This document shows positions 8,917-35,092 of a DNA stretch of 64,000 bases, piece after piece. This DNA is from a virus. Location of the stretch: positions 62,001-126,000 of IMG/VR virus record IMGVR_UViG_3300035684_000001; one strand, written 5' to 3'. A program made the position numbers and the translations under genes. Numbering within the stretch: the stretch's first letter is position 1; each line of letters begins with the position of its first letter. The notes beneath the pieces were generated by a model. The model was not told where the DNA came from and did no database searches. It saw nothing but the letters and a program-made list of their open reading frames with translations.

Positions 8917-8921
8917 ATTTT

Positions 8922-8930
8922 TGGTACAAT
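8922..8930 (+). promoter_or_regulatory. Extended -10 promoter of the tape measure gene (TGgTACAAT)
   Basis: An extended -10 overlaps the first possible TTG start (8921) of the giant reading frame. That makes 8921 an unlikely start, because transcription should begin near 8937. The leader downstream carries the 8961-8983 hairpin. Confidence 0.6.
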
Positions 8931-8960
8931 TCAATGAAACTAATATATCACGCTACGCAG

Positions 8961-8983
8961 GCCACCCCACCCAATGGGGCGGC
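8961..8983 (+). promoter_or_regulatory. 5' leader hairpin of the tape measure gene
   Basis: GCCaCCCCA (8961-8969) pairs with TGGGGcGGC (8975-8983) around a 5-base loop. It is followed by TTTTGTTGTTT, a GGGGGG run (8995-9000) and a TTG at 9005. The order hairpin, T/G-rich stretch, Shine-Dalgarno, start is the same as before the S74 fibre gene at 37863-37912. It may be an attenuator or an mRNA-stabilising 5' hairpin. Confidence 0.6.
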
Positions 8984-9004
8984 TTTTGTTGTTTGGGGGG
9001 AATT

Positions 9005-12000
9005 TTGGAAGAGAGTCTGGATCGGTACGGCTTAGTCGGTCAGTTTAATTTCTTAGTTGCAGACGGCAGTTTTTCTTCCATGAAATCTGTTGTCAAACAC
9101 CTGAGCAACATGGAGAAGGCTGTTGCAGACGCTTCCAAATCCGTAGACAGCAACGGGCTAGCAGGTCAATTTAAATCTGCAGCCCGATCGCTCGACACCT
9201 CCTCCGGCAACATGGCAAAGAGCTTGCAGCCTTTAAAAGCTGAGTTTAGGGTGTTAAAAGCTACTGCGGCAAATATTGATTTTGGAGATGTGCTGGACGA
9301 TCGCCAGTTCAAAAAAGCTACAACTGCTGTCAACACTTACGTTAAAAATCTCAAAGAATTAAGAAAGCAAGTTCAGGGCGAAACGGCAGCGGAGCGGGAG
9401 TTTACGGAAGTCCTCAAACGGCAGCAGCGCGTTATTAAGGACAAACTTGCTTTGCACGATGCTGAGCGCAAGGCTGCGTTTTTCTCTCAAAGAAAGGGTG
9501 AGTTTGGGGCGCTGCAACAAGTTGGGAATATAGCACTCAATCCGCTGAAGCAAGCCGGAAAAGAAGCCATTCAAGTTTTTGCTGGTTTTGACGACAAGAT
9601 GAGCGCGGTGGCAGCTATCTCGCGATCAACGGGCAAGGATTTAGATCGGTTGCGGGGTAAGGCTAAGTTATTGGGGGCGACGACTCGATTTACCGCAGGA
9701 GAGGCTGCGGATGCCGAAAAATACTTGGCGGCAGCGGGCTTTAACGCTCAACAGATTTTTGCAGGCGTTCCTGCAACTTTGGATTTAGCTTCGGCGGGAC
9801 AACTGGGATTGGCGGAATCGGCTGACATCGCTTCCAACGTGCTCAGCGGGATGCGGATGGGCGTTAGCGATTTAGGTCACATTACCGATGTTATGGCGTT
9901 GTCGGCTGCTAGCGCAAATACCAACATTCAGCAGTTGGGTGTAGCGATGAGCTACGCTGCTCCCAATGCTGCACTGTTTGGTGCGGGAATAGAAGAAACC
10001 TCTGCTTTAATTGGGGTGATGTCAAATGCGGGGATTCAGTCCGACAAGGCAGGAACGGCTGCAAGAGGAGCTTTTTTAAAGTTGGCCGCACCTACGGTCA
10101 GAGGTCGAATGGCTTTAATTCAATATGGAATTTCGCTGACCGACACCAGCGGTAAAATGCGGAATATCGTTGATGTGATGCAGGATATCGGTACAAACCT
10201 GCAATTAGATCCAGCTTCTTTAGACTCGATAATTCAAGCTGGCGATGACGTAGAAAAACTGGGACAACTTGCCCAGTCAAAGCAAATTTCTGCATTAAAA
10301 GATATTTTTGGCACAACTGGAATTTCGGGGGCATCGGCCGCAATCAGCCAAATGCAAGAATTTACTCGTCTGAGTTTGGCGGGTAGGGGCAGCTCTTTTG
10401 CTATTGAAGACTACGAAAAATTATTTAAATCTCAGGGTATTGATAAATTAGCCACAGATAAAGATGTTTTCGCTTCGCTGCTGCGAGAAGCGGGCAGCTA
10501 TCAAGATGCGCTACAAAAATTAGATGCTGCTACGATCGCCTTAGTTAAATCCAATGAATATTTAGGAAATCTTTCGAGCACCCAGCTAAGTCAATTGTCA
10601 GGATATTTCCAAATACCCGAAGGTGAGAATTTATTTGATGCGATTTTGGCGACTGCTCCCGACGCGAATGCGGCAGTCAGCAAGCTAACCTCAGCGATGG
10701 GCGAATTAGGGATTGAATTTAAGGGAAAATCCGGCGCAGCGAAAACGATGGCGCAGGTGATGGAAAACAACCTGGCCGGTTCTTTCCGATCGCTCGGTTC
10801 TGCGTTTGAAGCAGTTCAGGTCAATTTGATCGAACCGATCGCCCCAATCGTGCGGGCGATCTCCGACACATTAACTAAGTTGCTGCTGGCGATCGCCAAC
10901 CTTCCTTCCCCAATTCGAGGATTGATTGCCGGAGTTGGGGTGCTTACCGCAGGGTTTGCAGCGGTATCGGTTGCAGTCGGAACAGTTGGTGTAGTGCTGT
11001 TTGGATTTTCGCAAGCTGCGGCAACCGCGACTGCTGCGGGAATTGCACTGCAAGCTAGCGTGATTCCGCTGACCGGATTTTTCCCGGCGGCGATGGCGGC
11101 TTTTGAGGGTACGGCGTCCAACCCGTTCAAGACTGCCTCGTTTGCTGCGGAAGCTTTTTCGGACACGATCGCCTCTACGTCCAAAGATGTCAACTTGGGA
11201 TTGAACGGGATTGCTCGAAATATTGCGGTAGTTTCGAGGTCGCTGATTTCGATGTCGGTATCGTTTGCTCTGTCTCCAATGGGAATCGCGATTGCAAGCT
11301 TCCTTGCACTTAATGCTATTTTGCAACAAATTAACCCAGAAATTAATTTGCTGGGTACTATTTTCAGCGCCGTCAGTTCCATCGCTGGTTTTGCAGTTGG
11401 AATAATTCAAGGATTTGGCGAAGCGCTGCTCGCTGCACTAGATGTTCCAACATCTGTTGCAGGTTCGATGTTGACCGCTCCGTTTGCAGCAGTCAGCAGC
11501 GCTATAGAATATGCAACTGTGGCTTTTGAAACTTGGCGGAAATCCGGGCGGGCGATCGGGGTCGATATTTTTAAATTTGTAGCGCAGCCGTTTCAGCTTG
11601 CAGGCAGGGCGATCGAGACTTCATGGAACTTCACACTGAACTATATCAAGGGCTTGCTGACGCCTTTTGCTGGCTTCGTAGCTCGGATTGGCAAATTGCT
11701 GCAAGGGGGTCTAGCTGAGGCATCGCCGGGTCCGACCTACATGATTCGGGAAAAGTGGGATTACACGATCGCCTTTTTGGAAAAGCTGTTCACCAGAATT
11801 AGAAACGCTGCAGGTTTAGTTAATCGGGCTTTTTTAGGTATTGGAAGTGTAACAGAATCCTCGAAGATGGAAGCTCAGCAACAAATATTGCAAGGGGCGA
11901 TCAATTTAGTTACTAACTCTGTCAAGAAGCTTTCGGTTATTGGGGGAACTATTACTCAAATCCAGCAATTTGAGCGAAGTATTATTGATGGAGTTAGAGA

Positions 12001-15000
12001 AAACTTCGATTTTCTCAGCTTTACACTGCTAACCTTGTCGTCACTGCCTCTAACATTGCTAGCTCAATTAGAAGAAGGGGCAGCACTAATCGTTCCAGAG
12101 CTAGCGTTCATTATTGGAGAAGGAATCCCTAGGGCTTTTTTGTATGCAATGCCTGGGCTGGTCGCGATCGCCACTTCTACGGGATTAATTCAGGGAATTG
12201 AACGGGGATTCATGGGCGCAATCGATGCAATACCGGAATTTCTGGAAAGAATTTCCGACAAAATTTACAATTCCCTCTCTGTCGGGATGAAACAGAAGTT
12301 AAATCAAGGGTTGAGCGAAGGCTTGACATCTTTTGCGCGATCAATGCCTGCAATATTTCCAGGGGGGGTCGCGATCAATGTTGATATCGACAAAAGTTAC
12401 TTAGCAATTAAAGACTTTATTCGAGGTCCGCTAGTAGGACTGATTGCTTACCTCCACCGCGTCGGAGATTTGTCCAAGGAAATTGGTAAGGAAATTTACG
12501 CCGGAATCGAACCAATTTTAAGTTTCAATCCATTTACTTTTTTCCCGCTTTTTTCGGCACTGCCACCCCTGATACCGCTAGTGACTGCTATTTTGCCGAT
12601 GGAAAAGGCACTGGTGTCGCTAGCTAAGTCTCCTTCAGTTCAGGGGATTATGGGATTTTTAACTGGAACCGTTTTACCCGCTGCGCTCAGGACGATCGCG
12701 GCTATTTCTTCTCTAGTTATTTTTACTTTTAACGCGATCGTTACTTTGCCTGTATTGGCGGTATTGCAGGAAGTTATCAGCAGGCTGACTCCAATTACAG
12801 AGATCCTTCGGGCGATCGCGCTTAACGCTCAATCTGTCGCTGCTGCTGTTGGGAGGTCGCTGCTGCTGGCGGTGGATCGCGCAGTAATTGGTATTGCTGC
12901 GCTAATCCTCGAAATTCCCTATATCGGAAAACACTTGTCGGCTGCATTTTTGGTCGGAACCAAAGCCCTAGGCGGATTTTTTCAGTTAATTGCAGCATCT
13001 GCGCCTCGCTACTTAAACTTGCTGCTGAGGTTTTTTCCTACAAAACAATTAGTTGCTCTTTTCTCAAGCTACAGAAAGATTTTTACCGATTTAATGTCGG
13101 GAGTGGTTTACGCATTTAGAGAGGGGTTGAACCCAGTTTCTAATATCTTGATGAAAGCGCTCAATCCGGCAGCAGCTTTCAAGTTCTTGGCTTTTTACAT
13201 CCGAACCAAAGGATTAGCGGGAATTATTAAGAAGGGTGGTTTTGGAGGATTGTCCCAAATATTTAATCTTGCAAACTACATCAACCCTATCGATATTGCA
13301 CTGGGATTGAATAAAAGTTTGAACGAAGTTGCGAGGTTGGTATCGGGAAGTGCAGTTCCTCTGGACTTTATTTCCAGAAAACAAGCTGAAATATTCCAGG
13401 TTTTAGCTACTCCCGCAGCGAGGAGACTAGCTGAAAGAGAGAAGCGTTTGGTATCGCTAGTTGAAATTCTCGAAAGTGCATCGGGTCCGATGAAAGTATT
13501 TATCAAGCTCGTCCAGGGATTGATGATGGTTTCCCCGATCGTCCAGATTGTCAGTCGATTGGGTCTGACAATGCTGTTTTGGTACAACATCCTGAAACCA
13601 GTCAATAAAGAGATGTTGGACGCGATCGCCAATACCAGACTTTTGGGTGTCAGTTTGATGCCCGTCGCCAAGGTGTTGGAAGTCATGCGGTTTGTGGTAG
13701 TCGATCTCGGTGAAATCCTGTTCCGATTCTTAAAGGCGATACCGGGGATGGCTGCAACCGTTATGGATGTCTTTGACAAATTAGGGACAGGTATTGGGGT
13801 GACAATCCACGAAATTGTCGGAGTTTCGTCTATCCTTGCCAATGTTTTCAAATTCTCTGTCATAAACCCGCTAGCGGGCATACTCCTCGCGGTGATAGCG
13901 GTGGCAGACGGTACACTGATTGCAGTATTGGCAACATTTAAGCTGATTCGATTGAAAACTCAGCAGTACGGTGACGCGATCACGGCATTGTTGCGCGGTA
14001 ACTTTGTACCGCTAGTCAAGCAAATTTTTAGTGATTTGTTTGGAGTCATCAACTTCGGGTTTCAGCAGACAGCGATGCGGGCGGTAAGCGCGATCTCCTA
14101 TTTGGGTAAAACAGTAGGGACGATCGTCGGGGCAAGCGCCGCTGAAATTGTCAGGTTAATTCGAGATCCGATCGGTGAAATCACCAGATTAACGGAACTG
14201 TCTGTAAAAAGTTTGGCTGCTGCAACCGCCGGGGTGATGGTTTACGTCCGCCAGTTGCAACTCGATAAATTAATTCGATTTGCTGCGGATTTTTGGCCGG
14301 AAATTTTGGCAGTCGCCAGCGTGTTAGGTAGGATTTATGGTTTACTGAGTCCGATCCAGTTTGCGATCGTGGGACTGATCGAACTCGGCGGATTCTTGTC
14401 CTACGAGTACGCTACCGGATTTCAAAATTTAGATAAAATCATCACCGCTCTCCAGCACCCGATCGACGCATTGAATATGGCGATGCAGGGAATAGCTGGA
14501 TTCCTAGGGTTGTACATCTCACCGGATTTAACTGGGTTTATCGGCAACCTCGCAGAGCAATTTGTCAAATTCCTCCCGGTAATTGGGTCGGGAGTGTTTG
14601 CGATTGCGCTGTTGCTGACGCGGAATATCGGTGGTGCGTTTCAGATGATTTCTAACAACGTGCTCTTGTTTATCGGACGGATTTTGCAAGTTTCCGAGGC
14701 AATTGCAGGGGTGGGTGATCGGGTCAGACAAGTTGCTAGCAGTGCCAACATACAGGTTGGCTTGAGCGAAGTTGCAAATAAAGTGCGCCGCAGATCGACA
14801 GTTGCCGGAATTGCCAACCCGCTAGCTTATTCTCAAGATTTTCAAACCCAGCAGCAGGCAACGTTTCTCGGAGATCAAAGAGTTGCCAAATCTAAAGCAG
14901 CGCTACGCTATCAAAAGGAGTTAGCCAAAGCCCAGCAACAAGAACAGGCGTTATCGGAACGCGCTCTAATTTCCGAAGTTAAGCGGGGAACTGATTTTGG

Positions 15001-18000
15001 TAAGGGATTAGCAGATGCAGAGCGACGGTATTACCTTAAGGACAAAAACGGCATTACCGAGGGGGTGAGCGGAGCTGCTGTAGAAAAACGCCGCAACCGA
15101 TTCGGTATAGAGCAGTACCAAGTTACCGACATCGGTCGCCAACTCCTAAAAATGAGCGGTCAAGGTGGCGAAAACGTCAAGGCGGGGCGGGGCTTGCAAT
15201 TTGAAAACATACGCCGGGAGGCGGCGAAGAGATCCGGGCTAGATGCTGAGTTTTCTCGATTTGGAAATGCGCCGAGCAACGAAGAGTTGGTGAAGTTAGC
15301 CGGTGGCAAAAACGTGGCAATCGACCTTTTGACTAATTTTCAAAAGGCGATGGCTAACTTGCACGTTGAGGATATTAAAGCTGAGTACCTTTACGTGAGT
15401 AAATCAAAATTGCCGCAAGTATCGAAAGATAAACCAGATAGCGAGAGAGCTTTCGATATTCAAGTTCAACGATTCAAGGATAAGGGAAATAAAGATATAG
15501 GTATTAATAGCGTCGCTTCATCGTCAGAGATCCGAAAGGAAATGGAGGCTGCAAAAAAAGCGACCGTCAATGCTAGCACTGCCTTTTATTCAAGGTTGAA
15601 TGCTATTTTAGCTAAGGTTAAAACCTCACCGACTGACTCATCTCCTAGTTCCAAAATGTTTAACCCCGAAGCTGATACGCAAAACTACGCTGATAGGCTA
15701 AAAGCCGCTAAAGCTGTGGACAAGCAAAGGCCACAAGGAGAATTTGAGAGAACTCTTGCAGATATCATTCACACGATCAACGAAAGACAGACTAAGATGA
15801 TCGTTCAAACGGTCACGGGGTTCAATAACTTTGAAGAAGCAAACAAGCAGGCAGCTAGAGAGTTGCAAGAATCTTCTGGGCGATCAAGGCAAGTAGCTAT
15901 AGGTTTTGGCGAGGTAGCAGTACAGGGGGTAAGAAACCTCGGTCATTCAATGCAAGAGTCGTCTAACTTGCTAGAAGGACAGGTTGCTTCCACTCGGAAT
16001 TCTTTGGTTCGTACTTTGTTTGGATGGACTGGAATTCCCAAGATATTAGAAGCTATGCGATTCGATAAAACAATTGCAATTCAAGCGCGAATCGTTCAGG
16101 CTAGAACCGAAAGAATAGCTCGATCTGAAGCTACTGCCGCTTTAGTGTTAAAGAGGGCGCGAGAAAGAGGGCTAGATGCTTTAGTTAAAAACAATCCAGA
16201 ACACGCAAATTTAGATTTACTTCTAGTGAAAATGAGGCAACCAGAAAATAAACAGTTGTATCAATTCTTTAATCAGTTCATGGAGACTGGAAAGTACCAG
16301 CGAGAAGCTACTGGTAACGAAATTACCCAACTAACTGAAATGTTGAAAGCTAGCTTTGGTGAAAAGCGACCTGAGTTTCAGGGAGTAGATAATTTAAAGA
16401 CATTTTTAGACAGATTAAAATCTGCACCCGATCTGAACAAAGAAGATATTCAAAAGTTGCGAAGATATTTGACGCACGGCACGGGGGATCGTGGCAAACA
16501 ACTTAAAGAAAATGAATTTGAAGCATTAGCGAAACAATTAACCAATGCTGGCATAGGAGGAGAAAATGAATTACTGGATTTGCGAACAGCACTTCGCAGA
16601 GATGAGTCACTTGCTACTGTATTCGATCAATATTTGTTAACTGGTAAGTTTGTTTTAAAAGCGAGTCAAGAACAGCAAAATCAAATTGCTGGATTTCTTG
16701 GATTATCTTCGTCCCGTGAACTCAAAAATATTGATCAGATTAAATTAAAAAATCCTTTGGAGCAACTAAAAGTCAATGTTCGGGTTTACCTCGAAAGTAT
16801 AGACGCGGGTTTTGAACGATTCAATCGATCTACAATTAGCCAGATAGATTCCCTAGAATCGAAATTAATTAAAATACCGTTCATGAGTGTAGAGATGGCA
16901 GAAAACATTGTCCGTCCTCTCCGTAACTTTTACGCTGGTATTTACAGATCTGCTTTATCTGCCAAAGATTCATCAATCAAACTAGCTGGCGATCTGTATA
17001 ATGCCGCAGAAGCTAGTGTTAAAGGATCTAAGTTTGTTCAAAGAATTGAAAAACTGAATAAAGATTTTAGAATTGCTCAGCGAAACAGTTTACAACACAT
17101 GATGACAGAAGGGCGCGAGAAAGCCCCGAAAACTCATTATCAATTTATGGGTCAAATGTTTGCGGAGTTGACAAAAACTGACATCAAGGATCGGCAAGTT
17201 CAAGACAAAATACTGCAATCTATTCTCAAGGATCAAAAAGATAGTGAAGGAAATAACATCTCGATCAAAGACAGGCTGCTTAAGTTAGGGATGGGTGATA
17301 GGATTGAAAATATTACTAAAGCACTAGGAAAAGCTTTAGACGTAAATGAGGCTAGAGTTCGTGAGATCGTGGAGAATCCTGATTACACGGCGAAGTCTGT
17401 TGCACCTTATCAATTCTTTTTAGCCAAAGCATTCCCTGATTTAATCAAAAATTTCACCGGGGGAGTGACGTTACTTGCTGCTAAAAGCGGAGCGGGCGGA
17501 TTGATTAAAAAGATAGTTGCAGATATTTCTCCCGCATTAGGTAAACCAGTATTAATTGGACTTTCCAATGTCATCGATCGCGCCCGAATCGCTATGTCAG
17601 TCGGAACCAACCGAATCGCCCGTGAAGTCGAAGGGTTGATCGGGACAAACCCGTTTAGCAATTTCCTTAATAACTTCTCCCGATTTTTAGCTCGCAGTGG
17701 CGATTCGCTGTCCAAGTTTTTTGTTGATCGTGCCAACGGATTTGACGCAGAACGAGCTAAATCTTGGACGGTCAAAATAGTTGATAAAGCAGGAGAACTG
17801 TTCAAGACGGTTGCTGGAGTGTTGGTTCAAGCAGGGAACCAAGCGAAATCGCAGCAGGGCGGAATTTTAGGGGCGATCGGCAATTTATTCTCTGGAGTTA
17901 AAAAGTTTTTTTCTAATGTTTTTGGTAACAAAGATATTGCAAAGTTGCAAAAGCAAAAAGAGGCAGCAGAAAGACTGGCGCAGTCCGAAGGGGATTCTAG

Positions 18001-21000
18001 ATTGGGTCTTGCAGCTAAACGCCGTGCAGCAACTTTGGGTGATCGGATTGAATACACCAAACAGTTTAACTCTCCTGCTTCTAAGGCAAAAGCAGCTTTG
18101 TTTGGACTTGCTGAATTGCTGAAGACTGCTTCTCAAAAAGTTGGGCAGGGAGCTGATGCGCTGAACGCGCAATCGCGCCAAGCTGCAATTCCCCAAAGCG
18201 AAACAACAATTAGAGAAGCCAGTCGGGGAGGGCGACGCCACTACAGAAGTTTAGAGCGTCGCGGACTGATAGATTCGGCCGACGTTAGCATTGACAGCGG
18301 GATGGCTGAATATGCTAGCAATATACTCCCCTTGACCGAGAAGATATCCGCATCAATACTGAAGGGCGCTTCGTCCGCAGCCAGAGGAATTTCTACTTAC
18401 TTTCAAGGAGCGGCTACCCGCACGGAAACAGCATGGCAAGAAGCCACCAACAGAATTACTGGGAATAATTGGTGGACGATGGTGAAGCGCGCTGCGTGGG
18501 CGGGAGTCAAGATTGTGACCAGCCTCAACCACCGCGCATCCGACGTAACCAGCGCAGCCTGGGAAAATACCGAGCATTCTACCGCTGCAAATATGAACCA
18601 GATGGCTCAGGTGGCGGCGGGGACAGGGGCTGAAATTGCCCAAGATATGCAGCGCGCGGCGCAAGTTACTCAGCAGTCGATCGCCCACATCCCTCAAGTC
18701 GCAGAGCAAGCCACAACAAAATCAGTTGGATTTTTCCATAAATTAGTCGGTGCGATGGGCGGAGTTGGCAAGGCTGGAATGGCAGTGGGCGGTGCAGTGA
18801 CAGCAGCCGGATTTGCAGCGCAGACAGCTTTTTTCTCGCTACAAAACATGGGCTTTATCGACGAAGCTACAGGTCAAAGTCTTTATAAAGTAACAGAGTT
18901 GTTCACGTTGGTAGGTGCAGTTGGCGGACTGGCCGCTCCGGTACTGACTGCGTTGGGAGCTAGCTTTGGGGCGATTGTCTCAATTTCGGGCGCAACGATC
19001 GCCGGACTAACTGGCATTGGCGGAGCGATTGCCGGAGCGATGGGAGTAGCAGCGCTACCGCTAGCTCCTTTGATTGCAGGGGTTGCGGCGATCGGGCTAG
19101 CTGCGGGGGGACTATATTTAGCATTTAAAAATAACTTTTTAGGAATTGGAAATTTGGCGCGATCAACTGGAGATATGCTTTCTCAAGCCCTGTCAGCCCC
19201 GATTTCCTTTATTACCGCTGCGTGGCAAAGATTTATCGATGCGTTTGGCGGGAAATTGATGGCGATCATCCAGCCAGCACTAAACGTAGCGCAAGGTTTG
19301 ATAAACGCTCTCAACCACAACCCTACGGAGAAAATACCGACGGCATGGGAGGGAGCTGTTGCAAGCATAACAGGCTTGATACAAGGGATGGTCGCTCCAG
19401 CGAAGGGGGTAGGAGAAGAAATGTCCGAAGTGCTCCAAGCTGATGATGCCAAGCAGCGACGCAAAACGGAATTTATAAATTCAATAGCATTAGGAGCTAC
19501 AGGTGAAAAACAGAAATTGTCGTGGCAGGAGAATCTACAGATAGGCTTCGGTAAGGTTGTCGCTGCACTTACTTCGGTACTGTCGCCTCTTGACTCTGTT
19601 GGTAAGAAGTTAGACATTCAAGCTCAACTCCTCCACGCTCAAATCAGGCAGCAGCAGACCGCACAGGCGCAAACACTTTGGAGGTTCGCCACCAACAAAG
19701 AAAGGAATAAAAATCTAGCGACAAGAATAGAGGGAATGCTTCAAAGAAGATTCTCAAGGGAAGCGCCGCAGCAGTTAAGTCACTCTGCCCGGACTATGGG
19801 CGGTTTTGTCCCTAGAAGCGGTACAACAGCAACTGCTCCGCCGATGTTGGGGGCATTACAGCAAAGTGGAGCGGGTAAAGGTATTTCAAAATTCGGTAGT
19901 TTGCTTAAACCGATTTTTGGGTTAGGGATGTTAGGAGAAGTTGGCACATTAATGCTAGGTATAGGGGGGATAACAACCGCTCTATCTGTTCTCACGCTTG
20001 CTTTCACTACTGACTTTGCGGATATTAGGACAAAGACGGTTAAGTTAACAACGGCGATTGGTCATCTATTCTCCGGTGCAGTTCAAACGATTCAAAGAGC
20101 TTGGACGGGATTTGTACACTGGTTTCTTGATATGCCATTGGTCGATACCGCTTTAGAAATGGCATTGGGTCTTATTGATGCTTTAAATCACAACCCCACA
20201 GAGAAAATCCCAGCAGCATGGGAAGGTGCTGTAGAAAGAATATCAGGAGCGATAAATTGGTTGATAACACCAGCTAAGGAAGTTGCTGGGATATTGACGG
20301 GTGTATTTTCGCCAGTTAGTGACTTTTTTAGTAGTAAAGCAAAACAGGCAAACTTAGTCGTTAGTCAAGGTAAAGAAGCTGTTGTTAATACCAAAAATTC
20401 ACTGACAAACACTTATGCCGGAATGGAAGGTTTTTTCACCCAAGGTTCTCGGGCGATCGAGTCTGAGTTGCATCTACACGGACAGATATTTCTATCGATA
20501 GTTTCTACGCTCAATAACATTGCTTCTTATACTAAATCTTTGCTTTCTCTACTCGACAAGACTCAAGAAGAAACAAGGTCGTCGGCAGTCGCTCAAGCTC
20601 CCGATCTAGGAAAAAGTTCTGTGTTGGCGCAGCGCAAATATCAAATCGGGTTTGGCTTAAAAGGTGAAGGATGGAAAAAAAGAACCGAACAATCAAGACA
20701 AAAAGATATTTCCAATGATTTAGGTCAACAAAAAAGAGGATGGAATCTATTTGATAGAGTACACATTCCCGATTTTATAGAAATTAGAAATGTATTTGAC
20801 AAAGAATCTGCGTTTAGAACGCAAATTCAAGCTCAGATGCAGAAAGAAGAACTTAAGATTGCAGACACGATTCTCCAAGGACTGAATTCAAAATCATTGT
20901 CCTCTCAAGCAGAATATGCAGGTTTGGCAACGAAGATTACTGTACAGAAAAAAGGTCTTGGCGGACTGCTGGGTCAAACAGAAGATGTCTACAAAATTAA

Positions 21001-24000
21001 TCAAGCCGGTCAAAAATATATAGAAGAGCAATTGGCAGCATCTGCCAAAAATCAAGAAGGGATGTTTTCTAATGCTAGGTTGAGTGCTACGGCTGCATCT
21101 GTGGGAGCCAAGATTCCCGATCAATCGCTGTTAGATAAAGCTTTAATTGGGCAAGATTCATTGAATGATGCCATAAAAATTGCACCGGGGCAACCTGGAA
21201 AGTCGCAACAAATCCTACAACTGGAATCAATAAACAGCATATTAGCTGAAATTTTAACAGTTATAATTGGGCTGCAACCAGCATCAGTTCAAATACCCAG
21301 TAAACAGGTAATTGCTGAACCGCCCCGTGAAAAACTTCTACCATTAGAGGTTAAAGAAACAAGTTCTGCACAGAAATTCTTTGGCTTTTTAAGTCAAAGT
21401 ATAAAAGAAAATGCGCCAAAAATAACCAACTCTATTCAAGGTACTGTTAAATCTGGGATTGACAAAACTAAAGATTTTATTTCTTCACGAAAGCAAGCTT
21501 TTATCGAAAAGAAAACGTACTTGGCAGCTAAAGCAGGTGCGGGTATATTTGGTGGCACAGTTCCAAAAACCCCCGACGCGGTTGGTGTCACTGGAACGAT
21601 TGGCTTTGGTGATTTAGGTGCTAGCAGCACAAATGCAGCATGGGCTAATACCGCTTCAGCTATCACGGCGAACATTAATTCCTTGGTACAGCCAGCGGAG
21701 GATTCTGGGTACGAACTGCAAAAAGCTGTTTCTGAAGGTTCTCCCGGCCCAACTTACTGGATTCGACATTACTGGGAAAAAACTGTCGGGGCGATCGCTG
21801 GGTGGATGGGCGACATCCAGTCAACCGCTCAAGAAACCGGATCGGTTCTGCGCGGTAGCTTAACAAATTCAGCTAGCAAGATATTGCTATCGCCACCAAA
21901 AAACGACCTCAAAAGTCAGGCGATTCGATCTGCAAGTTTCTTCATGCTAGCTGTGGGTGATCGCTATCAGTATCTAGCCGATCGCGGAATAGGTAGCGCC
22001 AGTATTCTGTTCGCACCTGGGATGGAGTATGTCACAAGCAGCCTGAGTCAACTGGGTGAAGATTTAGTTGATTTTACCGGGCGATCGGCAAGAGCCTTGC
22101 TAACTCTAAATTTTGTGGAATTAGGGGACGCAGCTCACGACTTCTTCGGTAACTTCAAATATGGGGTGGGAGGGGTACTGTCGGGATTCAGTAGCATGAG
22201 TTTATCGGCGATCGCCTTCGGACTGTTTTCGCTGTCCGGTATTTCTCCGCTGCTTCTAGTCCTGGGGGGTGTCGCATTTACGGCTGCGGTAATCGTTGCG
22301 AACTTCTTGGGTATCCGAACGATTTTAACTGGGCTAATCAAAATTGGGATTGGTGCTGGCAAGATTTTGGCTGGAGTGCTGTGGGGATTAGTGGAAGCAG
22401 CGAGTGCTTTTAAAACGATCGCCCTAGGTATATTGCCCGCGCTGAAAGGAGATTTCACTCTAATCCAAGACGGCTTCCGGCGGCTGGGGTTTGCGTTTGA
22501 GAATTTTCAGCGTAGCGCGAGCGACGGGTTGAAGACGATCGCCCAAGGTTCAATCCAGATATTGCAGGGATTTGGTGAAGCGCTTGAACAAATTTTCCGA
22601 CCGTTAGGTTTTACCATCAAACAGACAACCGAATCTATCCAGAACTTTTTTTCAGCTTTCCGGTCTGGTGAGCAGGCGGGAGAAATGGTCGCATCTATAT
22701 TGATTGCTGCGGTCAAATCATTCACCAATGCTATCGGTTTTGCCATTGACAGTATTAAAAAGCATTTTCCAGTAATCAAGCAGCTTTTGGTAGAGCAACT
22801 TGATCTCGGAGTGCAGTCGATCAAAGACAAAATCTTTCAGGTTCAGGAAGCGATCAAGAATTTTACATTCAAAGATGCGATCACCAGTATCAGTCAACTC
22901 TTTGGTTCCATAGACGGATCTGTTGAGTCAGTTCCCGATCGCATCAAAAGATTAGCACCGGGAATCACTGAAGCTCTGACAGCACCTCTTAGATATGTTG
23001 GAGACTTCTGGCGGAGCTTTTTCAACACAATTCTCGCTGAGCTACCCCCAGAGATTGTGGCGACGATTCAGAAAGGGTTTGGCGACGCAATCTCCGCAGT
23101 TGAGCCGACGTTCCGGCAAATCCTCAAGACGTTGAACATTGAGGAATACTTTGATCGTGCGATAGTCAAGGTTCAAACTTCCTGGCAACACCTAAAAAAT
23201 TGGCTGGGGCAGAGTAACTTATTTCAAGTTGTGGGCGATCGGCTGCGCGAGGCTTTTAAGCCAGAAAACCTGTCTCAAGCTTTTCTTTCAACTATCAATA
23301 TCTTAGAGGCTGCATGGAGCAAGTTCGTTGGTTGGATGAGCGCAACTAATTTATTTGATTGGTTGTTCGCTCTCTTGCTCAAAGTCGGATCGGAATTTAC
23401 ATTGTTTGGAGATTTACTAAGAGAGAAGTGGTCGGATGTTCAAAAGTTGCTGGCATCTGGACAAGTATTCCAAGGATTCTTTGAGGGGATGAAGGATTTA
23501 GGTAGTAAACTAACTACCTGGGCGCTCGAAATTGGCTTAAAATTCGAGATACCAGCGATTCAAGACTTGTTTGTCAAGATTGCTTTATTAGGGGAAAATC
23601 TTAGCAATACAACGGCATTTATTCGAGAAAAATGGAATAAATTATCTGTTTGGTTAGCTGAGACTCCTCTGATTCCAGGGGCTTTAGACTTCCTAGTAGC
23701 ACTTGGTACAAAGTTTGGCGAGACAATATCTTGGATTAAATCTGAATGGCCCAATTTTATCACCTTCTTAACGTCGGCAGATTTGTTTGCGAATATATCT
23801 GCAAAGATGAAGAGTTTTGGCGAATCAATTCCCTCTTTGTTTGAAGAAATAAAAGGACAGGTAGCTAAAATTATTCCTAGCATGAATGGTGCAATCGGAT
23901 CTATCCAGGTTCAATGGCAACGTCTCACAGAATTCTTGAATAAAAAGGGTCTGTTTACACGGGTGTTTGCGGGACTGAGTGAAGCTCTGAATGAAAAGGG

Positions 24001-27000
24001 CTTGTTTACTAGGATTTTTACGGGAATCCAAGATATTCCGATCGCCCTTGGGAAAGTAGCAGACTGGATTAAGGAGAAATGGCAAAAGTTTGCCGTAGAG
24101 TTTCAAACGATATTGACTCCTATCGTAGACTTTGCTAAATGGCTGGGTCAAACCTTGATCAACTTATTGAACCATAGCCCGACGGTCAAGATCCCTGAAG
24201 CTTGGAAGGAAGCAGTCACCAAAATAACGAATTCGTTGTTGGCACTGATAGCGCCTGCGAGTTGGGTGGCAAGTCAAATTATCGAGAAGTTTAATTTAGA
24301 TGCAGTAAAAAATGGGTTTAAATCCCTGACTGGATTTATCTCTAATTTTGCAACCAGCTTGTTTTCTGAAGTTCAACAGCCACTGACAGACTTGATTGGC
24401 ATCGTAGTTTCTGCAAGTAAGTCAGTCATTGATTTTGGCAAAACTTTGTTCGACATTGCCAAGGCGGTAAATAGTGGGGCGATCGCCTCCGATGAGATGA
24501 CATCTAAATTAACGGGTGTGTCATCCGCCGTCAGACATTTGGGTGAATTCTTAGGAGTAATTCTACGGAGTTTAGGGCAGTTCTCTCAAGGATTAACTTC
24601 CGCTGGTGATGATGCCGATCGCGCATCTTCTGCGGGGAAAGGGTTGGGGCAAGTTGTAGGAAAGATGTTAGCTGGCATAGTTAGTTTCTCTACGACAGTC
24701 CTGCCACCTTTGTTCAAAGTGTTGTGGGTGTTTACGCAGATAGGTATTGAGATTTCAGCGTTCGCACTAAAGTTTGTATGGGCATTTCGCTTTGTACTGG
24801 ATTGGCCTAGTCGGGTAATGACCGCTGTTTTAGGTTTATACAATGCGGTCATGAGGTTTGTCGCGCTGTTGTCGTCATTCTCTCGTAAATCTAAGGAAGT
24901 TTTTGTAGGATTACAGGAAGGTTTTGCAAGCTTTAAGACTCAACTAGCAGGTGTTGCGCTGACTGCGAGTGAAATTGCAAGCAGTTTCCTCGGTTTCGCT
25001 AAAGACATCGGTACTTTCGGCTCGAAGATGGGAAGTGTCATAGCTGAAATATTAATCGGGCTGAAAGATGTAGGTGTTGCGCTTTTCAAGCTCGGCTTAG
25101 ATGTTTCCCTACCATTCGACATCTTCAGTGTGTTTAAAGGGATTCCCGACATAATTTCTAGCATAGGTGCTCTTGGCAGTAACGCCACTGAATTAAAAGG
25201 AAGGTTGATTTCAGAGTTGGGAGAATTGGGTGCAGCGATCACCCAGTTTCTCGAACAACCACTGAAAGCGGTGGGGGCAATTTGGGAAAAAACCGGAGGC
25301 AAAATTGTCGGGGCGATCGCGGGTATCGGTAGAAAAGCCAAGCAAACCGGACAACAATTGCAGGGCGATTTGTCGGAAGCGTCGCCGGGTCCGACTTACT
25401 GGATTCGCAAAAATTGGCTCAATACTACAGAGACTATCCAGAGTCAGTTGTCGGACTTGGCGCTGTCTGCAAAAATTGAAGGCAACGCAATTTACAAATT
25501 CTTAGACCGATCGCTCACCGCGTTATCTCCATCTAAAATTGCCGAAGCCGGGGAAGCACTTGGCGGACTGAAGTTTGATGCGCGACTAGCGATGTCGAAC
25601 GTGGGTCGTAATCCGAAAGTTGACACGCAAAGTAACCTTCATGTCATTACCGCACGGCAGTTGAGATTGAATGAACTCTACAAACAAGGGACGATCGACA
25701 GCAAAGTCTACACCCAAGGTTTGAAGAATTTAGAATCTGCCCACAAGCGGGTAACGCAAGCAGTCGAACAGGATACCGCTGCTAGGAAACAAGCTGGTGA
25801 AAGCGTTAGATCTTTGTCGCTGTCGATCGGTTCCGCACTGTCGAACATTGCCCCGCAGCTAGCGACGCCGATATTCATGTTCAATGACTTAGTGACTGCA
25901 TTCCTAGATATTCGGACTGCAATACCGGGGATGCGAGCTTTTTACGCAGCGAACGCAGCAAGTTCCGTAGCTGCTGACAGCGCGATCTCCGCATCCGCTT
26001 TAACCAAAGCTGGAATCGTGGGGGGTGCTAACGGGGCGATCGCCGCTTCTTACGGGTTTGTTGCGGGTGCTGCCAAGCTTGCCTATAGGTCAATGATTGT
26101 ACCGTTGCTGCCGTTTTTACCTTTGATATTAGGGATTAGCTCTGCCATATTTTTGCTGTACCGAGCTTACAAGGACAACATTGGCGACATTCAAGGGGTT
26201 ATGGAAAATGCAAAAAATAGTCTAGGTAATTTTGGATCGTGGATTCTTGAGTCTATTTCCAGTGTTGCTTCTGGAATTGTTGGAATGATTGCAGGCGTCC
26301 TTGGCCCATTGATTGAGGTCAGCAAATTTGCTTTTACTGTATTTGGGGTATTCGTTGAGTCACTACTGAAGATTGGCGCTGCTTTAGCTGTATTTTCTTT
26401 CCTGGGTCAAATAGGGAGTCTGTTTGTCAGCGCTGGGGCATTTGTTACTGGATTGGGGCTAGCAATTGTTGAATTTTCGACGATCGCTGGAAGTGTAGCC
26501 GCAGTATTTAGCGGAGTATTAGTTCCAGTGATTCTCAGTGGATTGAGTGCAATCTTTGCTGCGGCAGCCGCAGTAATCACCCCCTTTCTTCCTTTGATTC
26601 CATTAATTCTAGGAATTGTCACGGTCGGGTGGGTGCTGGGGAAAGTCTTCAACTTTGTTGGCAGTATTATCGGTGGCGTTTTCGGGGGGATTTGGAATTC
26701 GAGTACCGAAGTGGTTGGAACACTATTTCAGGAAATCAGTAATGTCTGGAGCGCACTCGCGGATCTAGGTGATCAAATTGTCCAACCATTCGCCCAAGCT
26801 TTTGGGGCTATCGCCAGTATCTTTGGCGGGGTAGATGGAAACATATCAGGGGTTGCCTCAACAATCATCCATGTGTTGCTGATTCCAGTTAAGCTTCTAG
26901 CTGCTGGCTTAATTACAATCATCAAGGCAATTTCATTTACGCTAATTGGCGTAATTAAAACGCTAGGGTTTGTTTTCAAGGTTGTCTCGAAGATTGTTCA

Positions 27001-27880
27001 ATCGGTTGCAATTGTCGGTACAGTGATCGCCGGAACAGTCGCGACTTTAGCCTTGATAGCAAATTTTGGTGTCGTGCTTGCTGGGATAACAGGAGCTCTT
27101 GGGGCGATCGGTACTGCTGTATCGGGAGTTGGCAGTGCCTTGATGGCGATCGGAGGCGTATTTGTCACAGTTGTCATTCCAGTCATTATGGGCGGCATTG
27201 GGGCTATAATTGCAGGTATTTCTGCTGCGGTGGTTGCAGCGTCACCTTTCTTGGCGATAATTCTTGGAGTTGTGGCGATCGGGTGGGTTTTGAAAGAAAC
27301 TTTCGTTGTAGTTGGAGGTGCTATTACTAGAGTTTTCCAAGGAATTTGGAACTTAATTCAGTGGGTTGTCACTAATTCAATGGGGATTCTAGCTAATATC
27401 CCCTTCGTTGGCGGATTGTTTGCTCCTTCATTGCGGAGTCAACCTTTACCGAGCCACCCACTACAGGTTCAGCCAGTACAGCGTTATGCGGTCGGTGGTT
27501 TGATATCGGGTCCGGGAACATCTACAGGCGATCGCGTTCCTATTTTGGCTTCACCTGGGGAGTATGTTATCAACGCTGCTGCTACGCGATCAAACCTACC
27601 GTTGTTGGAATCGATTAATCAGGGCGATCGGGTAGAAGCTTCTAACCTCCGCGCATTGCCCGTTCCCGCAACTCCAATTCCCCTTCCCCCTGTTGCATCT
27701 TCGCAGGCGACAGAGTATAACGTTCAATTAATTTTTGGAGATATTATAGTACAGGGTGCAAATCCAGGTTTTGCAGCAGAAGAATTATTACGCGAACTCA
27801 TGAAGCATTTGGAATCACCGCAAGCACAAAGAGTTATTCGCAATCAATTGCGCGATATTGTTGAAAAAGCGAAGCAATAA
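9005..27880 (+). CDS. Giant phage tail tape measure protein, TP901 type
   Basis: About 6,291 residues from a TTG at 9005 preceded by GGGGGG; the frame is open to 8921, but that would place the start inside the promoter. The tape measure protein sets tail length and fills the tail tube before DNA ejection. Seen: a PhageMin_Tail-like core at about residues 195-430 (MSAVAAISRSTGKDLDRL onward). Long hydrophobic helical blocks fill much of the rest. A roughly 1,100-residue hydrophilic, charged block lies at about 1930-3100. The C-terminal signature is GGLISGPGTSTGDRVPILAS followed by GEYVINAAA, typical of tape measure ends. Two internal repeat families occur (SPGPTYWIR at about 905, 4244 and 5458; NHNPTEKIP at about 3435, 3727 and 5055). 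By the usual 0.15 nm per residue the tail would be about 0.9 micrometre; this is an inference. HIP1 sites are frequent outside the hydrophilic block. Confidence 0.92.
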   Translation: MEESLDRYGLVGQFNFLVADGSFSSMKSVVKHLSNMEKAVADASKSVDSNGLAGQFKSAARSLDTSSGNMAKSLQPLKAEFRVLKATAANIDFGDVLDDRQFKKATTAVNTYVKNLKELRKQVQGETAAEREFTEVLKRQQRVIKDKLALHDAERKAAFFSQRKGEFGALQQVGNIALNPLKQAGKEAIQVFAGFDDKMSAVAAISRSTGKDLDRLRGKAKLLGATTRFTAGEAADAEKYLAAAGFNAQQIFAGVPATLDLASAGQLGLAESADIASNVLSGMRMGVSDLGHITDVMALSAASANTNIQQLGVAMSYAAPNAALFGAGIEETSALIGVMSNAGIQSDKAGTAARGAFLKLAAPTVRGRMALIQYGISLTDTSGKMRNIVDVMQDIGTNLQLDPASLDSIIQAGDDVEKLGQLAQSKQISALKDIFGTTGISGASAAISQMQEFTRLSLAGRGSSFAIEDYEKLFKSQGIDKLATDKDVFASLLREAGSYQDALQKLDAATIALVKSNEYLGNLSSTQLSQLSGYFQIPEGENLFDAILATAPDANAAVSKLTSAMGELGIEFKGKSGAAKTMAQVMENNLAGSFRSLGSAFEAVQVNLIEPIAPIVRAISDTLTKLLLAIANLPSPIRGLIAGVGVLTAGFAAVSVAVGTVGVVLFGFSQAAATATAAGIALQASVIPLTGFFPAAMAAFEGTASNPFKTASFAAEAFSDTIASTSKDVNLGLNGIARNIAVVSRSLISMSVSFALSPMGIAIASFLALNAILQQINPEINLLGTIFSAVSSIAGFAVGIIQGFGEALLAALDVPTSVAGSMLTAPFAAVSSAIEYATVAFETWRKSGRAIGVDIFKFVAQPFQLAGRAIETSWNFTLNYIKGLLTPFAGFVARIGKLLQGGLAEASPGPTYMIREKWDYTIAFLEKLFTRIRNAAGLVNRAFLGIGSVTESSKMEAQQQILQGAINLVTNSVKKLSVIGGTITQIQQFERSIIDGVRENFDFLSFTLLTLSSLPLTLLAQLEEGAALIVPELAFIIGEGIPRAFLYAMPGLVAIATSTGLIQGIERGFMGAIDAIPEFLERISDKIYNSLSVGMKQKLNQGLSEGLTSFARSMPAIFPGGVAINVDIDKSYLAIKDFIRGPLVGLIAYLHRVGDLSKEIGKEIYAGIEPILSFNPFTFFPLFSALPPLIPLVTAILPMEKALVSLAKSPSVQGIMGFLTGTVLPAALRTIAAISSLVIFTFNAIVTLPVLAVLQEVISRLTPITEILRAIALNAQSVAAAVGRSLLLAVDRAVIGIAALILEIPYIGKHLSAAFLVGTKALGGFFQLIAASAPRYLNLLLRFFPTKQLVALFSSYRKIFTDLMSGVVYAFREGLNPVSNILMKALNPAAAFKFLAFYIRTKGLAGIIKKGGFGGLSQIFNLANYINPIDIALGLNKSLNEVARLVSGSAVPLDFISRKQAEIFQVLATPAARRLAEREKRLVSLVEILESASGPMKVFIKLVQGLMMVSPIVQIVSRLGLTMLFWYNILKPVNKEMLDAIANTRLLGVSLMPVAKVLEVMRFVVVDLGEILFRFLKAIPGMAATVMDVFDKLGTGIGVTIHEIVGVSSILANVFKFSVINPLAGILLAVIAVADGTLIAVLATFKLIRLKTQQYGDAITALLRGNFVPLVKQIFSDLFGVINFGFQQTAMRAVSAISYLGKTVGTIVGASAAEIVRLIRDPIGEITRLTELSVKSLAAATAGVMVYVRQLQLDKLIRFAADFWPEILAVASVLGRIYGLLSPIQFAIVGLIELGGFLSYEYATGFQNLDKIITALQHPIDALNMAMQGIAGFLGLYISPDLTGFIGNLAEQFVKFLPVIGSGVFAIALLLTRNIGGAFQMISNNVLLFIGRILQVSEAIAGVGDRVRQVASSANIQVGLSEVANKVRRRSTVAGIANPLAYSQDFQTQQQATFLGDQRVAKSKAALRYQKELAKAQQQEQALSERALISEVKRGTDFGKGLADAERRYYLKDKNGITEGVSGAAVEKRRNRFGIEQYQVTDIGRQLLKMSGQGGENVKAGRGLQFENIRREAAKRSGLDAEFSRFGNAPSNEELVKLAGGKNVAIDLLTNFQKAMANLHVEDIKAEYLYVSKSKLPQVSKDKPDSERAFDIQVQRFKDKGNKDIGINSVASSSEIRKEMEAAKKATVNASTAFYSRLNAILAKVKTSPTDSSPSSKMFNPEADTQNYADRLKAAKAVDKQRPQGEFERTLADIIHTINERQTKMIVQTVTGFNNFEEANKQAARELQESSGRSRQVAIGFGEVAVQGVRNLGHSMQESSNLLEGQVASTRNSLVRTLFGWTGIPKILEAMRFDKTIAIQARIVQARTERIARSEATAALVLKRARERGLDALVKNNPEHANLDLLLVKMRQPENKQLYQFFNQFMETGKYQREATGNEITQLTEMLKASFGEKRPEFQGVDNLKTFLDRLKSAPDLNKEDIQKLRRYLTHGTGDRGKQLKENEFEALAKQLTNAGIGGENELLDLRTALRRDESLATVFDQYLLTGKFVLKASQEQQNQIAGFLGLSSSRELKNIDQIKLKNPLEQLKVNVRVYLESIDAGFERFNRSTISQIDSLESKLIKIPFMSVEMAENIVRPLRNFYAGIYRSALSAKDSSIKLAGDLYNAAEASVKGSKFVQRIEKLNKDFRIAQRNSLQHMMTEGREKAPKTHYQFMGQMFAELTKTDIKDRQVQDKILQSILKDQKDSEGNNISIKDRLLKLGMGDRIENITKALGKALDVNEARVREIVENPDYTAKSVAPYQFFLAKAFPDLIKNFTGGVTLLAAKSGAGGLIKKIVADISPALGKPVLIGLSNVIDRARIAMSVGTNRIAREVEGLIGTNPFSNFLNNFSRFLARSGDSLSKFFVDRANGFDAERAKSWTVKIVDKAGELFKTVAGVLVQAGNQAKSQQGGILGAIGNLFSGVKKFFSNVFGNKDIAKLQKQKEAAERLAQSEGDSRLGLAAKRRAATLGDRIEYTKQFNSPASKAKAALFGLAELLKTASQKVGQGADALNAQSRQAAIPQSETTIREASRGGRRHYRSLERRGLIDSADVSIDSGMAEYASNILPLTEKISASILKGASSAARGISTYFQGAATRTETAWQEATNRITGNNWWTMVKRAAWAGVKIVTSLNHRASDVTSAAWENTEHSTAANMNQMAQVAAGTGAEIAQDMQRAAQVTQQSIAHIPQVAEQATTKSVGFFHKLVGAMGGVGKAGMAVGGAVTAAGFAAQTAFFSLQNMGFIDEATGQSLYKVTELFTLVGAVGGLAAPVLTALGASFGAIVSISGATIAGLTGIGGAIAGAMGVAALPLAPLIAGVAAIGLAAGGLYLAFKNNFLGIGNLARSTGDMLSQALSAPISFITAAWQRFIDAFGGKLMAIIQPALNVAQGLINALNHNPTEKIPTAWEGAVASITGLIQGMVAPAKGVGEEMSEVLQADDAKQRRKTEFINSIALGATGEKQKLSWQENLQIGFGKVVAALTSVLSPLDSVGKKLDIQAQLLHAQIRQQQTAQAQTLWRFATNKERNKNLATRIEGMLQRRFSREAPQQLSHSARTMGGFVPRSGTTATAPPMLGALQQSGAGKGISKFGSLLKPIFGLGMLGEVGTLMLGIGGITTALSVLTLAFTTDFADIRTKTVKLTTAIGHLFSGAVQTIQRAWTGFVHWFLDMPLVDTALEMALGLIDALNHNPTEKIPAAWEGAVERISGAINWLITPAKEVAGILTGVFSPVSDFFSSKAKQANLVVSQGKEAVVNTKNSLTNTYAGMEGFFTQGSRAIESELHLHGQIFLSIVSTLNNIASYTKSLLSLLDKTQEETRSSAVAQAPDLGKSSVLAQRKYQIGFGLKGEGWKKRTEQSRQKDISNDLGQQKRGWNLFDRVHIPDFIEIRNVFDKESAFRTQIQAQMQKEELKIADTILQGLNSKSLSSQAEYAGLATKITVQKKGLGGLLGQTEDVYKINQAGQKYIEEQLAASAKNQEGMFSNARLSATAASVGAKIPDQSLLDKALIGQDSLNDAIKIAPGQPGKSQQILQLESINSILAEILTVIIGLQPASVQIPSKQVIAEPPREKLLPLEVKETSSAQKFFGFLSQSIKENAPKITNSIQGTVKSGIDKTKDFISSRKQAFIEKKTYLAAKAGAGIFGGTVPKTPDAVGVTGTIGFGDLGASSTNAAWANTASAITANINSLVQPAEDSGYELQKAVSEGSPGPTYWIRHYWEKTVGAIAGWMGDIQSTAQETGSVLRGSLTNSASKILLSPPKNDLKSQAIRSASFFMLAVGDRYQYLADRGIGSASILFAPGMEYVTSSLSQLGEDLVDFTGRSARALLTLNFVELGDAAHDFFGNFKYGVGGVLSGFSSMSLSAIAFGLFSLSGISPLLLVLGGVAFTAAVIVANFLGIRTILTGLIKIGIGAGKILAGVLWGLVEAASAFKTIALGILPALKGDFTLIQDGFRRLGFAFENFQRSASDGLKTIAQGSIQILQGFGEALEQIFRPLGFTIKQTTESIQNFFSAFRSGEQAGEMVASILIAAVKSFTNAIGFAIDSIKKHFPVIKQLLVEQLDLGVQSIKDKIFQVQEAIKNFTFKDAITSISQLFGSIDGSVESVPDRIKRLAPGITEALTAPLRYVGDFWRSFFNTILAELPPEIVATIQKGFGDAISAVEPTFRQILKTLNIEEYFDRAIVKVQTSWQHLKNWLGQSNLFQVVGDRLREAFKPENLSQAFLSTINILEAAWSKFVGWMSATNLFDWLFALLLKVGSEFTLFGDLLREKWSDVQKLLASGQVFQGFFEGMKDLGSKLTTWALEIGLKFEIPAIQDLFVKIALLGENLSNTTAFIREKWNKLSVWLAETPLIPGALDFLVALGTKFGETISWIKSEWPNFITFLTSADLFANISAKMKSFGESIPSLFEEIKGQVAKIIPSMNGAIGSIQVQWQRLTEFLNKKGLFTRVFAGLSEALNEKGLFTRIFTGIQDIPIALGKVADWIKEKWQKFAVEFQTILTPIVDFAKWLGQTLINLLNHSPTVKIPEAWKEAVTKITNSLLALIAPASWVASQIIEKFNLDAVKNGFKSLTGFISNFATSLFSEVQQPLTDLIGIVVSASKSVIDFGKTLFDIAKAVNSGAIASDEMTSKLTGVSSAVRHLGEFLGVILRSLGQFSQGLTSAGDDADRASSAGKGLGQVVGKMLAGIVSFSTTVLPPLFKVLWVFTQIGIEISAFALKFVWAFRFVLDWPSRVMTAVLGLYNAVMRFVALLSSFSRKSKEVFVGLQEGFASFKTQLAGVALTASEIASSFLGFAKDIGTFGSKMGSVIAEILIGLKDVGVALFKLGLDVSLPFDIFSVFKGIPDIISSIGALGSNATELKGRLISELGELGAAITQFLEQPLKAVGAIWEKTGGKIVGAIAGIGRKAKQTGQQLQGDLSEASPGPTYWIRKNWLNTTETIQSQLSDLALSAKIEGNAIYKFLDRSLTALSPSKIAEAGEALGGLKFDARLAMSNVGRNPKVDTQSNLHVITARQLRLNELYKQGTIDSKVYTQGLKNLESAHKRVTQAVEQDTAARKQAGESVRSLSLSIGSALSNIAPQLATPIFMFNDLVTAFLDIRTAIPGMRAFYAANAASSVAADSAISASALTKAGIVGGANGAIAASYGFVAGAAKLAYRSMIVPLLPFLPLILGISSAIFLLYRAYKDNIGDIQGVMENAKNSLGNFGSWILESISSVASGIVGMIAGVLGPLIEVSKFAFTVFGVFVESLLKIGAALAVFSFLGQIGSLFVSAGAFVTGLGLAIVEFSTIAGSVAAVFSGVLVPVILSGLSAIFAAAAAVITPFLPLIPLILGIVTVGWVLGKVFNFVGSIIGGVFGGIWNSSTEVVGTLFQEISNVWSALADLGDQIVQPFAQAFGAIASIFGGVDGNISGVASTIIHVLLIPVKLLAAGLITIIKAISFTLIGVIKTLGFVFKVVSKIVQSVAIVGTVIAGTVATLALIANFGVVLAGITGALGAIGTAVSGVGSALMAIGGVFVTVVIPVIMGGIGAIIAGISAAVVAASPFLAIILGVVAIGWVLKETFVVVGGAITRVFQGIWNLIQWVVTNSMGILANIPFVGGLFAPSLRSQPLPSHPLQVQPVQRYAVGGLISGPGTSTGDRVPILASPGEYVINAAATRSNLPLLESINQGDRVEASNLRALPVPATPIPLPPVASSQATEYNVQLIFGDIIVQGANPGFAAEELLRELMKHLESPQAQRVIRNQLRDIVEKAKQ
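11717..25418 (+). repeat. Dispersed SPGPTY(W/M)IR module in the tape measure gene
   Basis: Three copies begin near 11717, 21735 and 25377. Each encodes a Ser/Glu-rich lead-in, SPGPTY, W or M, IR and then an aromatic Trp-containing stretch. The nucleotide match is partial, pointing to old internal duplication rather than recent copying. Confidence 0.7.
19297..20290 (+). repeat. Tandem NHNPTEKIP module in the tape measure gene
   Basis: Two well-matched copies begin near 19300 and 20170, each encoding a leucine-rich lead, NHNPTEKIP, AWEGAV and a hydrophobic helix ending in a PAK motif. A more diverged third copy (NHSPTVKIPEAW) lies near 24165. They suggest growth of the gene by intragenic duplication. 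Confidence 0.7.
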
Positions 27881-30220: not shown

Positions 30221-30664
30221 ATGAAAAAACAAATAGCAGCAGCTTGCCAAATCTCTGTCTACTCTGAATCTAAGGCAGAAGAAATAGCTAGTCGTCTTTG
30301 CAACACAATCACAGACTCAGGAAAACCATGTAATCCTATCGTAGAAGACTGGACGGGGGATGATACAAGTTGGCCACCAGAGCCCGAAGTCTACATCTTT
30401 TTCTGTATACAGGAAGAATGTGATGTGGATAATCGGGGAATCCCCGTAAAGATCCTAAATGCGATCACAGATGAAAATGTTAGCTTACGGATGGAGGAAG
30501 ATTTCTTGCTTGAAGCAAAACGTCCAGAAAGTATTGAGCAGCACTTTGAATGGGTGGGTGTTACTATCAATGAATATCAATCGATATACGCCAATCGAAA
30601 ATTCCATCCTGATGCGGAGCAATATAAACGCAACGTACCCAAATGGGAAAAATGGAACACCTAA
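30221..30664 (+). CDS. Paralogue of the 180-aa protein, truncated (copy 2)
   Basis: 147 residues, starting MKKQIAAACQISVYSE, aligning with copy 1 through IVEDWTG, WPPEPEVYIFF and VKILNAI. It lacks the copy 1 segment around residue 95 and ends early at WEKWNT. A remnant of the lost cysteine-rich tail survives out of frame at 30698-30742. It keeps an intact promoter and start, so a shortened protein is probably made. Whether it is functional, a regulator of copy 1 or decaying is unknown. Confidence 0.6.
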   Translation: MKKQIAAACQISVYSESKAEEIASRLCNTITDSGKPCNPIVEDWTGDDTSWPPEPEVYIFFCIQEECDVDNRGIPVKILNAITDENVSLRMEEDFLLEAKRPESIEQHFEWVGVTINEYQSIYANRKFHPDAEQYKRNVPKWEKWNT

Positions 30665-33094: not shown

Positions 33095-33099
33095 TGTTT

Positions 33100-35025: not shown

Positions 35026-35042
35026 AATTTTTTTCAAAACAT

Positions 35043-35073: not shown

Positions 35074-35092
35074 ATTGTAAAGGTTTTGGCTC

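Follow-up and report, generated by a model that had tools for sequence, protein, structure and literature searches.

What is a reading frame of more than 6,000 codons doing in a virus genome: is it one real gene, and if so, what length and kind of tail would its product measure? The frame lies in a 64,000-nucleotide stretch of DNA (here called the window) that corresponds to positions 62001-126000 of the 188,553-base virus record IMGVR_UViG_3300035684_000001 (G000). Tape measure proteins (TMPs) are chains whose copies lie inside the tail tube, set the number of rings and exit before the DNA. The first-pass annotation had read the frame as a single TMP of about 6,290 residues, with a TP901/PhageMin_Tail core near the N terminus and a typical C-terminal end, and not as a fusion artefact.

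A single open frame encodes an intact tape measure protein

The stop-free frame ends at 27880 on the plus strand and offers two possible TTG starts, one at 8921 (6,319 residues) and one at 9005 (6,291 residues). In favor of the start at 9005, related TMPs share a motif just after their own starts: they begin with M plus one to four residues and then DRYGL or QYGL, matching the residues after 9005. The DRYGL motif stands just after the ATG in MEETDRYGL (G610), MADNQDRYGL (G605), MADTDRYGL (G606) and MSEDRYGL (a Microcoleus contig), and the G000 protein beginning at 9005 reads TTG-EESLDRYGL. Judged by these alignments, the TMP probably does not include the upstream extension. The features of the frame are as follows.

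8921..9004, plus strand: in-frame extension of 28 codons upstream of the TMP; the start in relatives aligns with 9005
9005..27880, plus strand: TMP gene, a single open frame of 6,291 codons with a TTG start and the DRYGL start motif common to relatives
9656..10312, plus strand: PhageMin_Tail (TP901-type) core of the TMP, PF10145, E 1.5e-39
26090..27286, plus strand: dense hydrophobic segments near the TMP C terminus by hydropathy, a candidate membrane or channel region
27302..27625, plus strand: conserved C-terminal tape-measure end (GPGTSTGDRVPI...GEYVINAAATRSNLPLLE), phrog_25241, E 9.8e-15

Profile searches assigned the protein to the TMP class at both ends. The PF10145 match covered residues 246-464 (counted from 8921) at 136 bits (cut-off 33), and the core matched one related PDB chain, a solved tail tape measure (9g8s, 1.2e-26). 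PHROG tape-measure families matched the N-terminal region (phrog_1533 at 2.6e-76, and others) as well as the C-terminal end, which also resembled the ends of TM4 and other TMPs in tblastn. Half of the TMP segments with a mean hydropathy of at least 1.8 (14 of 28) fell within 26090..27286. Pfam and PHROG searches of the chain in three pieces found no enzyme-type domain. Moreover, the genome contains head, packaging and tail genes, with portal, large terminase, sheath and spike genes found and a weak match for the major capsid protein.

Independent copies bear on two other readings of the frame, a chimeric assembly and a gene in decay. In record G001 (IMGVR_UViG_3300036939_000082, 188,942 bases), the copy has 6,293 residues and is 88% identical over its full length; counted from the same start, the two proteins differ by small in-frame insertions and deletions only, with no frame break, and dN/dS is 0.05-0.18 in each 400-residue window of the alignment. 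The G000 and G001 sequences are collinear apart from their starting points, and both genomes therefore appear near-complete and circularly permuted. Record G002 (IMGVR_UViG_3300018916_000037, 21,604 bases) is a single open frame from end to end, with 7,200 codons that are 41% identical to the G000 TMP in aligned columns; it is without both termini, so that its TMP has at least 7,200 residues. Because the G001 copy is intact under low dN/dS and G002 is stop-free over 21.6 kb, the length of the frame is beyond chance. Internal repeats in the TMP make an assembler error conceivable, and a TMP copy in a Microcoleus assembly has two frame breaks, as a decaying gene might, but independent assemblies contain full-length copies, with purifying selection all along the chain and indels that are small and in frame, and either reading is thus extremely improbable. 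On the independent assemblies and dN/dS, an artefact or fusion was rejected. We conclude that the frame encodes one TMP with the length, core and C-terminal end first proposed for it.

Other genes of the window were recorded in passing. On the minus strand, 514-5790, just upstream of the TMP region, encodes a DarB-like antirestriction/methyltransferase-helicase protein of 1,758 residues, and 31779-35121 encodes a histidine kinase (HisKA and HATPase_c), then a CheY-like response regulator, then a second receiver-domain protein (below the Pfam cut-off); all three genes are also in G001, and such a phage-encoded kinase set is uncommon in phages. On the plus strand are two similar small putative proteins in tandem (29357-29899 and 30221-30664), a candidate lysin with GH19 chitinase-like and M23 peptidase domains (35782-37296), and a thymidylate-synthase-like protein with a C-terminal pterin-binding domain, DUF4346 (44210-45757).

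Tail type and host

Tail genes were identified both within the window and elsewhere in the record. A tail sheath gene of 1,000 residues lies outside the window at record positions 129856-132858 (phrog_23 at 1.4e-16; PDB sheath 9ezm at 2.3e-8), and sheaths were also present in five related records and a Microcoleus assembly. It is adjoined by a tube gene (132886-133452) whose single-sequence match was weak; the profile of the tube family matched T4 gp19 at 0.0037, and the G610 ortholog matched tail-tube families (phrog_4542 at 1e-4). Structural models of the tube reached a pLDDT of 31 from two sequences and 58 from eight, and in Foldseek the best matches of the eight-sequence model were nearly all tubes of contractile tails or injection systems (E 1.6e-5), with TM-scores of only 0.3-0.5. 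Two baseplate genes lie in the window.

53064..57470, minus strand: baseplate hub/spike protein of contractile-tail type with an N-terminal Phage_base_V OB domain, PF04717, phrog_430
58997..60019, minus strand: baseplate hub protein weakly resembling T4 gp26, by PF12322 (E 0.0023, below cut-off) and phrog_150 (E 6.2e-5)

The PF04717 match scored 24.3 bits against a cut-off of 23.8, and the gp25-like and gp26-like baseplate matches were weak. Tail_P2_I scored above cut-off elsewhere in the record, where the portal and terminase also lie. The markers of a contractile tail are all present in G000: a sheath, a tube with the gp19/Hcp fold, and baseplate proteins of the spike/hub and the wedge.

The first-pass annotation had compared the tail with those of the Thermus phages P23-45/P74-26, which are flexible siphovirus tails. 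The longest known tail, that of P74-26, is indeed non-contractile (PMC10034513), and the TP901-type core is common among siphoviruses, which would fit a flexible tail of about 0.9 µm. A sheath, a neighboring T4-like tube, a Phage_base_V spike, Tail_P2_I and gp26-like proteins nonetheless occur together in one genome, and relatives keep sheath and tube; a siphovirus tail is accordingly very improbable and was rejected on the sheath, tube and spike genes. Since a sheath, a tube like that of T4 and baseplate proteins of T4/P2 type are all encoded, the tail of the G000 phage should be contractile and myovirus-like, as predicted from its genes. In addition, a repeated insert in the 1,000-residue sheaths (G000:129856-132858; G610:33620-36616; L160) resembles tail-fibre families (phrog_1980), giving the impression of a decorated sheath surface.

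The host is probably Microcoleus, a filamentous cyanobacterium, to judge indirectly from two kinds of sequence resemblance. A TnpB/OrfB-like transposon protein (51635-52840, minus strand) shares 88% identity with a copy from Microcoleus, with next-best matches mostly from Microcoleus or Oscillatoriales; it seems to have moved, because related DNA stands at another place in G001. Relatives of the TMP, sheath, portal and terminase occur as contigs of one Microcoleus-genus assembly. Nothing in G000 indicates a prophage, and induced particles may therefore be unobtainable.

Relatives with rulers of other lengths

Profiles of the tube and sheath retrieved six further records, and a TMP relative was present in every one. 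Counted from the DRYGL/QYGL start, the TMPs have 3,662 (G606), 4,270 (G605), 4,806 (G607), 4,843 (G608) and 8,060 (G610) residues; that of G609 is incomplete, with 2,894 residues up to the contig end. The clade as a whole forms a series of 3,662, 4,270, about 4,800 (n = 3), 6,291, 6,293, at least 7,200 and 8,060 residues. The 8,060-residue protein is encoded on a 58.7-kb contig together with a sheath 52% identical to that of G000. Chains of BLAST matches between the TMPs were collinear end to end, and in small trees of the tube and of the TMP N terminus the TMPs longer than 6,000 residues grouped together, apart from the 4,800-residue and 3,700- to 4,300-residue groups; the pairing of G002 with G610 was without support. 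The TMPs of G607, G608 and the Microcoleus contig L145 had no PF10145 match, and their flanking regions were conserved.

Searching bacterial genomes by pattern for the TMP gave no match, and a direct search of the genus Microcoleus then yielded one assembly. That assembly (G399), in the GTDB genus of Microcoleus sp. FACHB-61 and M. vaginatus HSN003, carries the copy with two frame breaks, collinear and about 4,800 codons long, and on other contigs relatives of the sheath (47%), tube, portal (33%) and terminase (39%). A sheath search at 1e-15 found none in a sample of 293 genomes of the order, evidently without G399. Among PF10145 frames in 386 genomes of the cyanobacterial phylum, the longest other than these has 4,654 residues and the remainder at most 2,482. 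That 4,654-residue PhageMin_Tail frame (L146; G128:C1, from about 122061) showed no similarity to the G000 TMP within the compared stretch (tblastn, 1e-5). Among isolate phages, the terminase had no match and the portal and sheath had one weak match each, so that no cultured close relative of the clade was identified. In a literature search limited to open-access sources, the longest TMP described had 5,002 residues and the longest contractile tail measured 450 nm. We conclude that the G000 TMP is a record-size version of a known protein type from an undescribed, uncultured clade. Its first description as among the longest TMPs stands, including its excess over the Thermus phages (6,291 versus 5,002 residues in P23-45), but it is not the longest in its own clade, as the G610 protein exceeds any TMP found described.

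How such rulers might change in length is suggested by repeats within the chain. When 300-residue pieces were compared, residues 3400-3497 matched 3693-3788 (E 1.7e-18) and residues 879-946 matched 5436-5499 (6e-10), with further repeats present; self-BLAST of the whole protein gave no off-diagonal matches. The repeats contain the motifs SPGPTYxIR and NHxPTxKIPxAW, and copies of the module motifs are found at the following positions.

11723..11758, plus strand: SPGPTYMIREKW, module motif, copy 1
19310..19348, plus strand: LNHNPTEKIPTAW, module motif, copy 1; its surroundings recur at 20183 and 24167 (copies match at E 1.7e-18)
20183..20221, plus strand: LNHNPTEKIPAAW, module motif, copy 2
21740..21775, plus strand: SPGPTYWIRHYW, module motif, copy 2
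24167..24205, plus strand: LNHSPTVKIPEAW, module motif, copy 3
25382..25417, plus strand: SPGPTYWIRKNW, module motif, copy 3

In G002, region 772-936 is followed directly by its copy, 936-1120 (3.7e-22), where the G000 TMP has one copy, and the alignment of the two proteins shows a 184-residue insertion in G002 at the duplicated region. The internal repeats and the in-frame length changes, including the tandem copy in G002, suggest that the ruler grows by duplicating or inserting modules. G609 and G610, about 81% identical over a long stretch, differ in the repeated blocks near the TMP C terminus, a case of recent TMP length change.

Predicted tail length and its meaning

To predict tail length, published ratios were applied. 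Phage G has a 450-nm contractile tail and a TMP of 2,893 residues, or 0.156 nm per residue (PMC8570332), and it makes a more suitable reference than the Thermus siphoviruses do, because the G000 tail should be contractile. Other published ratios are 0.162 (Hotorobo) and at least 0.160 (P23-45) nm per residue, so that the 0.15 nm per residue originally assumed was reasonable. At 0.150-0.162 nm per residue, a chain of 6,291 residues predicts a tail of 0.94-1.02 µm, which at 4 nm per ring corresponds to roughly 240-255 rings of tube and sheath, and the same ratios predict at least 1.08 µm for G002 and 1.21-1.31 µm for G610. The original annotation put the tail near 0.9 µm and above those of the Thermus phages; the range predicted here is comparable to the nearly 1 µm of P74-26 (PMC10034513) rather than clearly greater.

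By analogy with other phages, several TMP chains would line up along the inside of the growing tube, and tube and sheath rings would be added until the ruler was covered. At infection the TMP would leave the tube ahead of the DNA, and its hydrophobic C-terminal part may help to build a membrane channel. Most contractile tails shorten by about half (PMC11948020), and about 0.5 µm of tube could therefore be driven out.

Only part of the chain may be ruler, with a large part delivered as cargo along with the DNA, in which case the tail would be clearly shorter than 0.9 µm. Residues ~2000-2800 are more charged (29-30% DEKR), less hydrophobic and less conserved, and might be globular cargo rather than ruler; if this region and both ends are not ruler, the tail could be nearer 0.7 µm. 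There is precedent in the P23-45 TMP, which has an RNA polymerase at its N terminus (PMC10770324). Against cargo, none of the three TMP pieces contained a known enzyme-type Pfam or PHROG domain, and the collinear alignment with the 8,060-residue relative spans residues 1-3011, the charged region included. We regard extensive cargo as unlikely, albeit the most serious of the alternatives, and we think it likely that the frame is the tail-length ruler of a contractile-tailed phage from an uncultured clade that probably infects Microcoleus.

Known systems each share part of this combination. Like the proposed ruler of G000, Bacillus phage G gp183 (PMC8570332) is a very long one for a contractile tail, but at 2,893 residues it is less than half as long as the G000 TMP and has glucosaminidase and M23 peptidase domains, neither of which was found in the latter. 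Thermus P23-45 and P74-26 (PMC10770324, PMC10034513) combine a giant TMP with a tail near 1 µm, as predicted for G000, but the tail is non-contractile and the TMP is shorter (5,002 residues) with N-terminal RNA polymerase and metallopeptidase domains; in contrast to these oshimaviruses, G000 has a sheath and, in Pfam and PHROG searches, no polymerase family in its TMP. TMPs of the PF10145/TP901 type share the core domain and the general layout with a conserved C terminus. Anabaena myophage A-1(L) (PMC10966104) is also contractile-tailed with a filamentous cyanobacterial host, and its tube fold was among the Foldseek matches of the clade tube model, but its tail measures 104.5 nm with 24 rings. 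The contractile tail of phage P1, termed "ultra-long" (PMC10304247), has 245 nm and 53 rings, about a quarter of the length predicted for G000.

If the tail follows chain length, the G000 phage would have a contractile tail of about 1 µm, about twice that of phage G (450 nm) and four times that of P1. We lean slightly toward the broader proposal that an uncultured clade of Microcoleus phages has the longest contractile tails known (about 0.9-1.3 µm, two to three times that of phage G), with a ruler whose length has been changed stepwise by module duplication and insertion, perhaps as a means of getting through the thick polysaccharide sheath around the host bundle. Microcoleus bundles are sheathed, and the use of a long tail in crossing the sheath is a guess. 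If true, such tails would test how far a contraction wave travels, how a chain of 6,000-8,000 residues remains soluble until it is assembled, and whether extreme tail length has evolved in response to filamentous hosts with sheaths. The clade, with TMPs of 3,662 to 8,060 residues in a shared order, is a natural series for studying ruler growth and calibrating length per residue.
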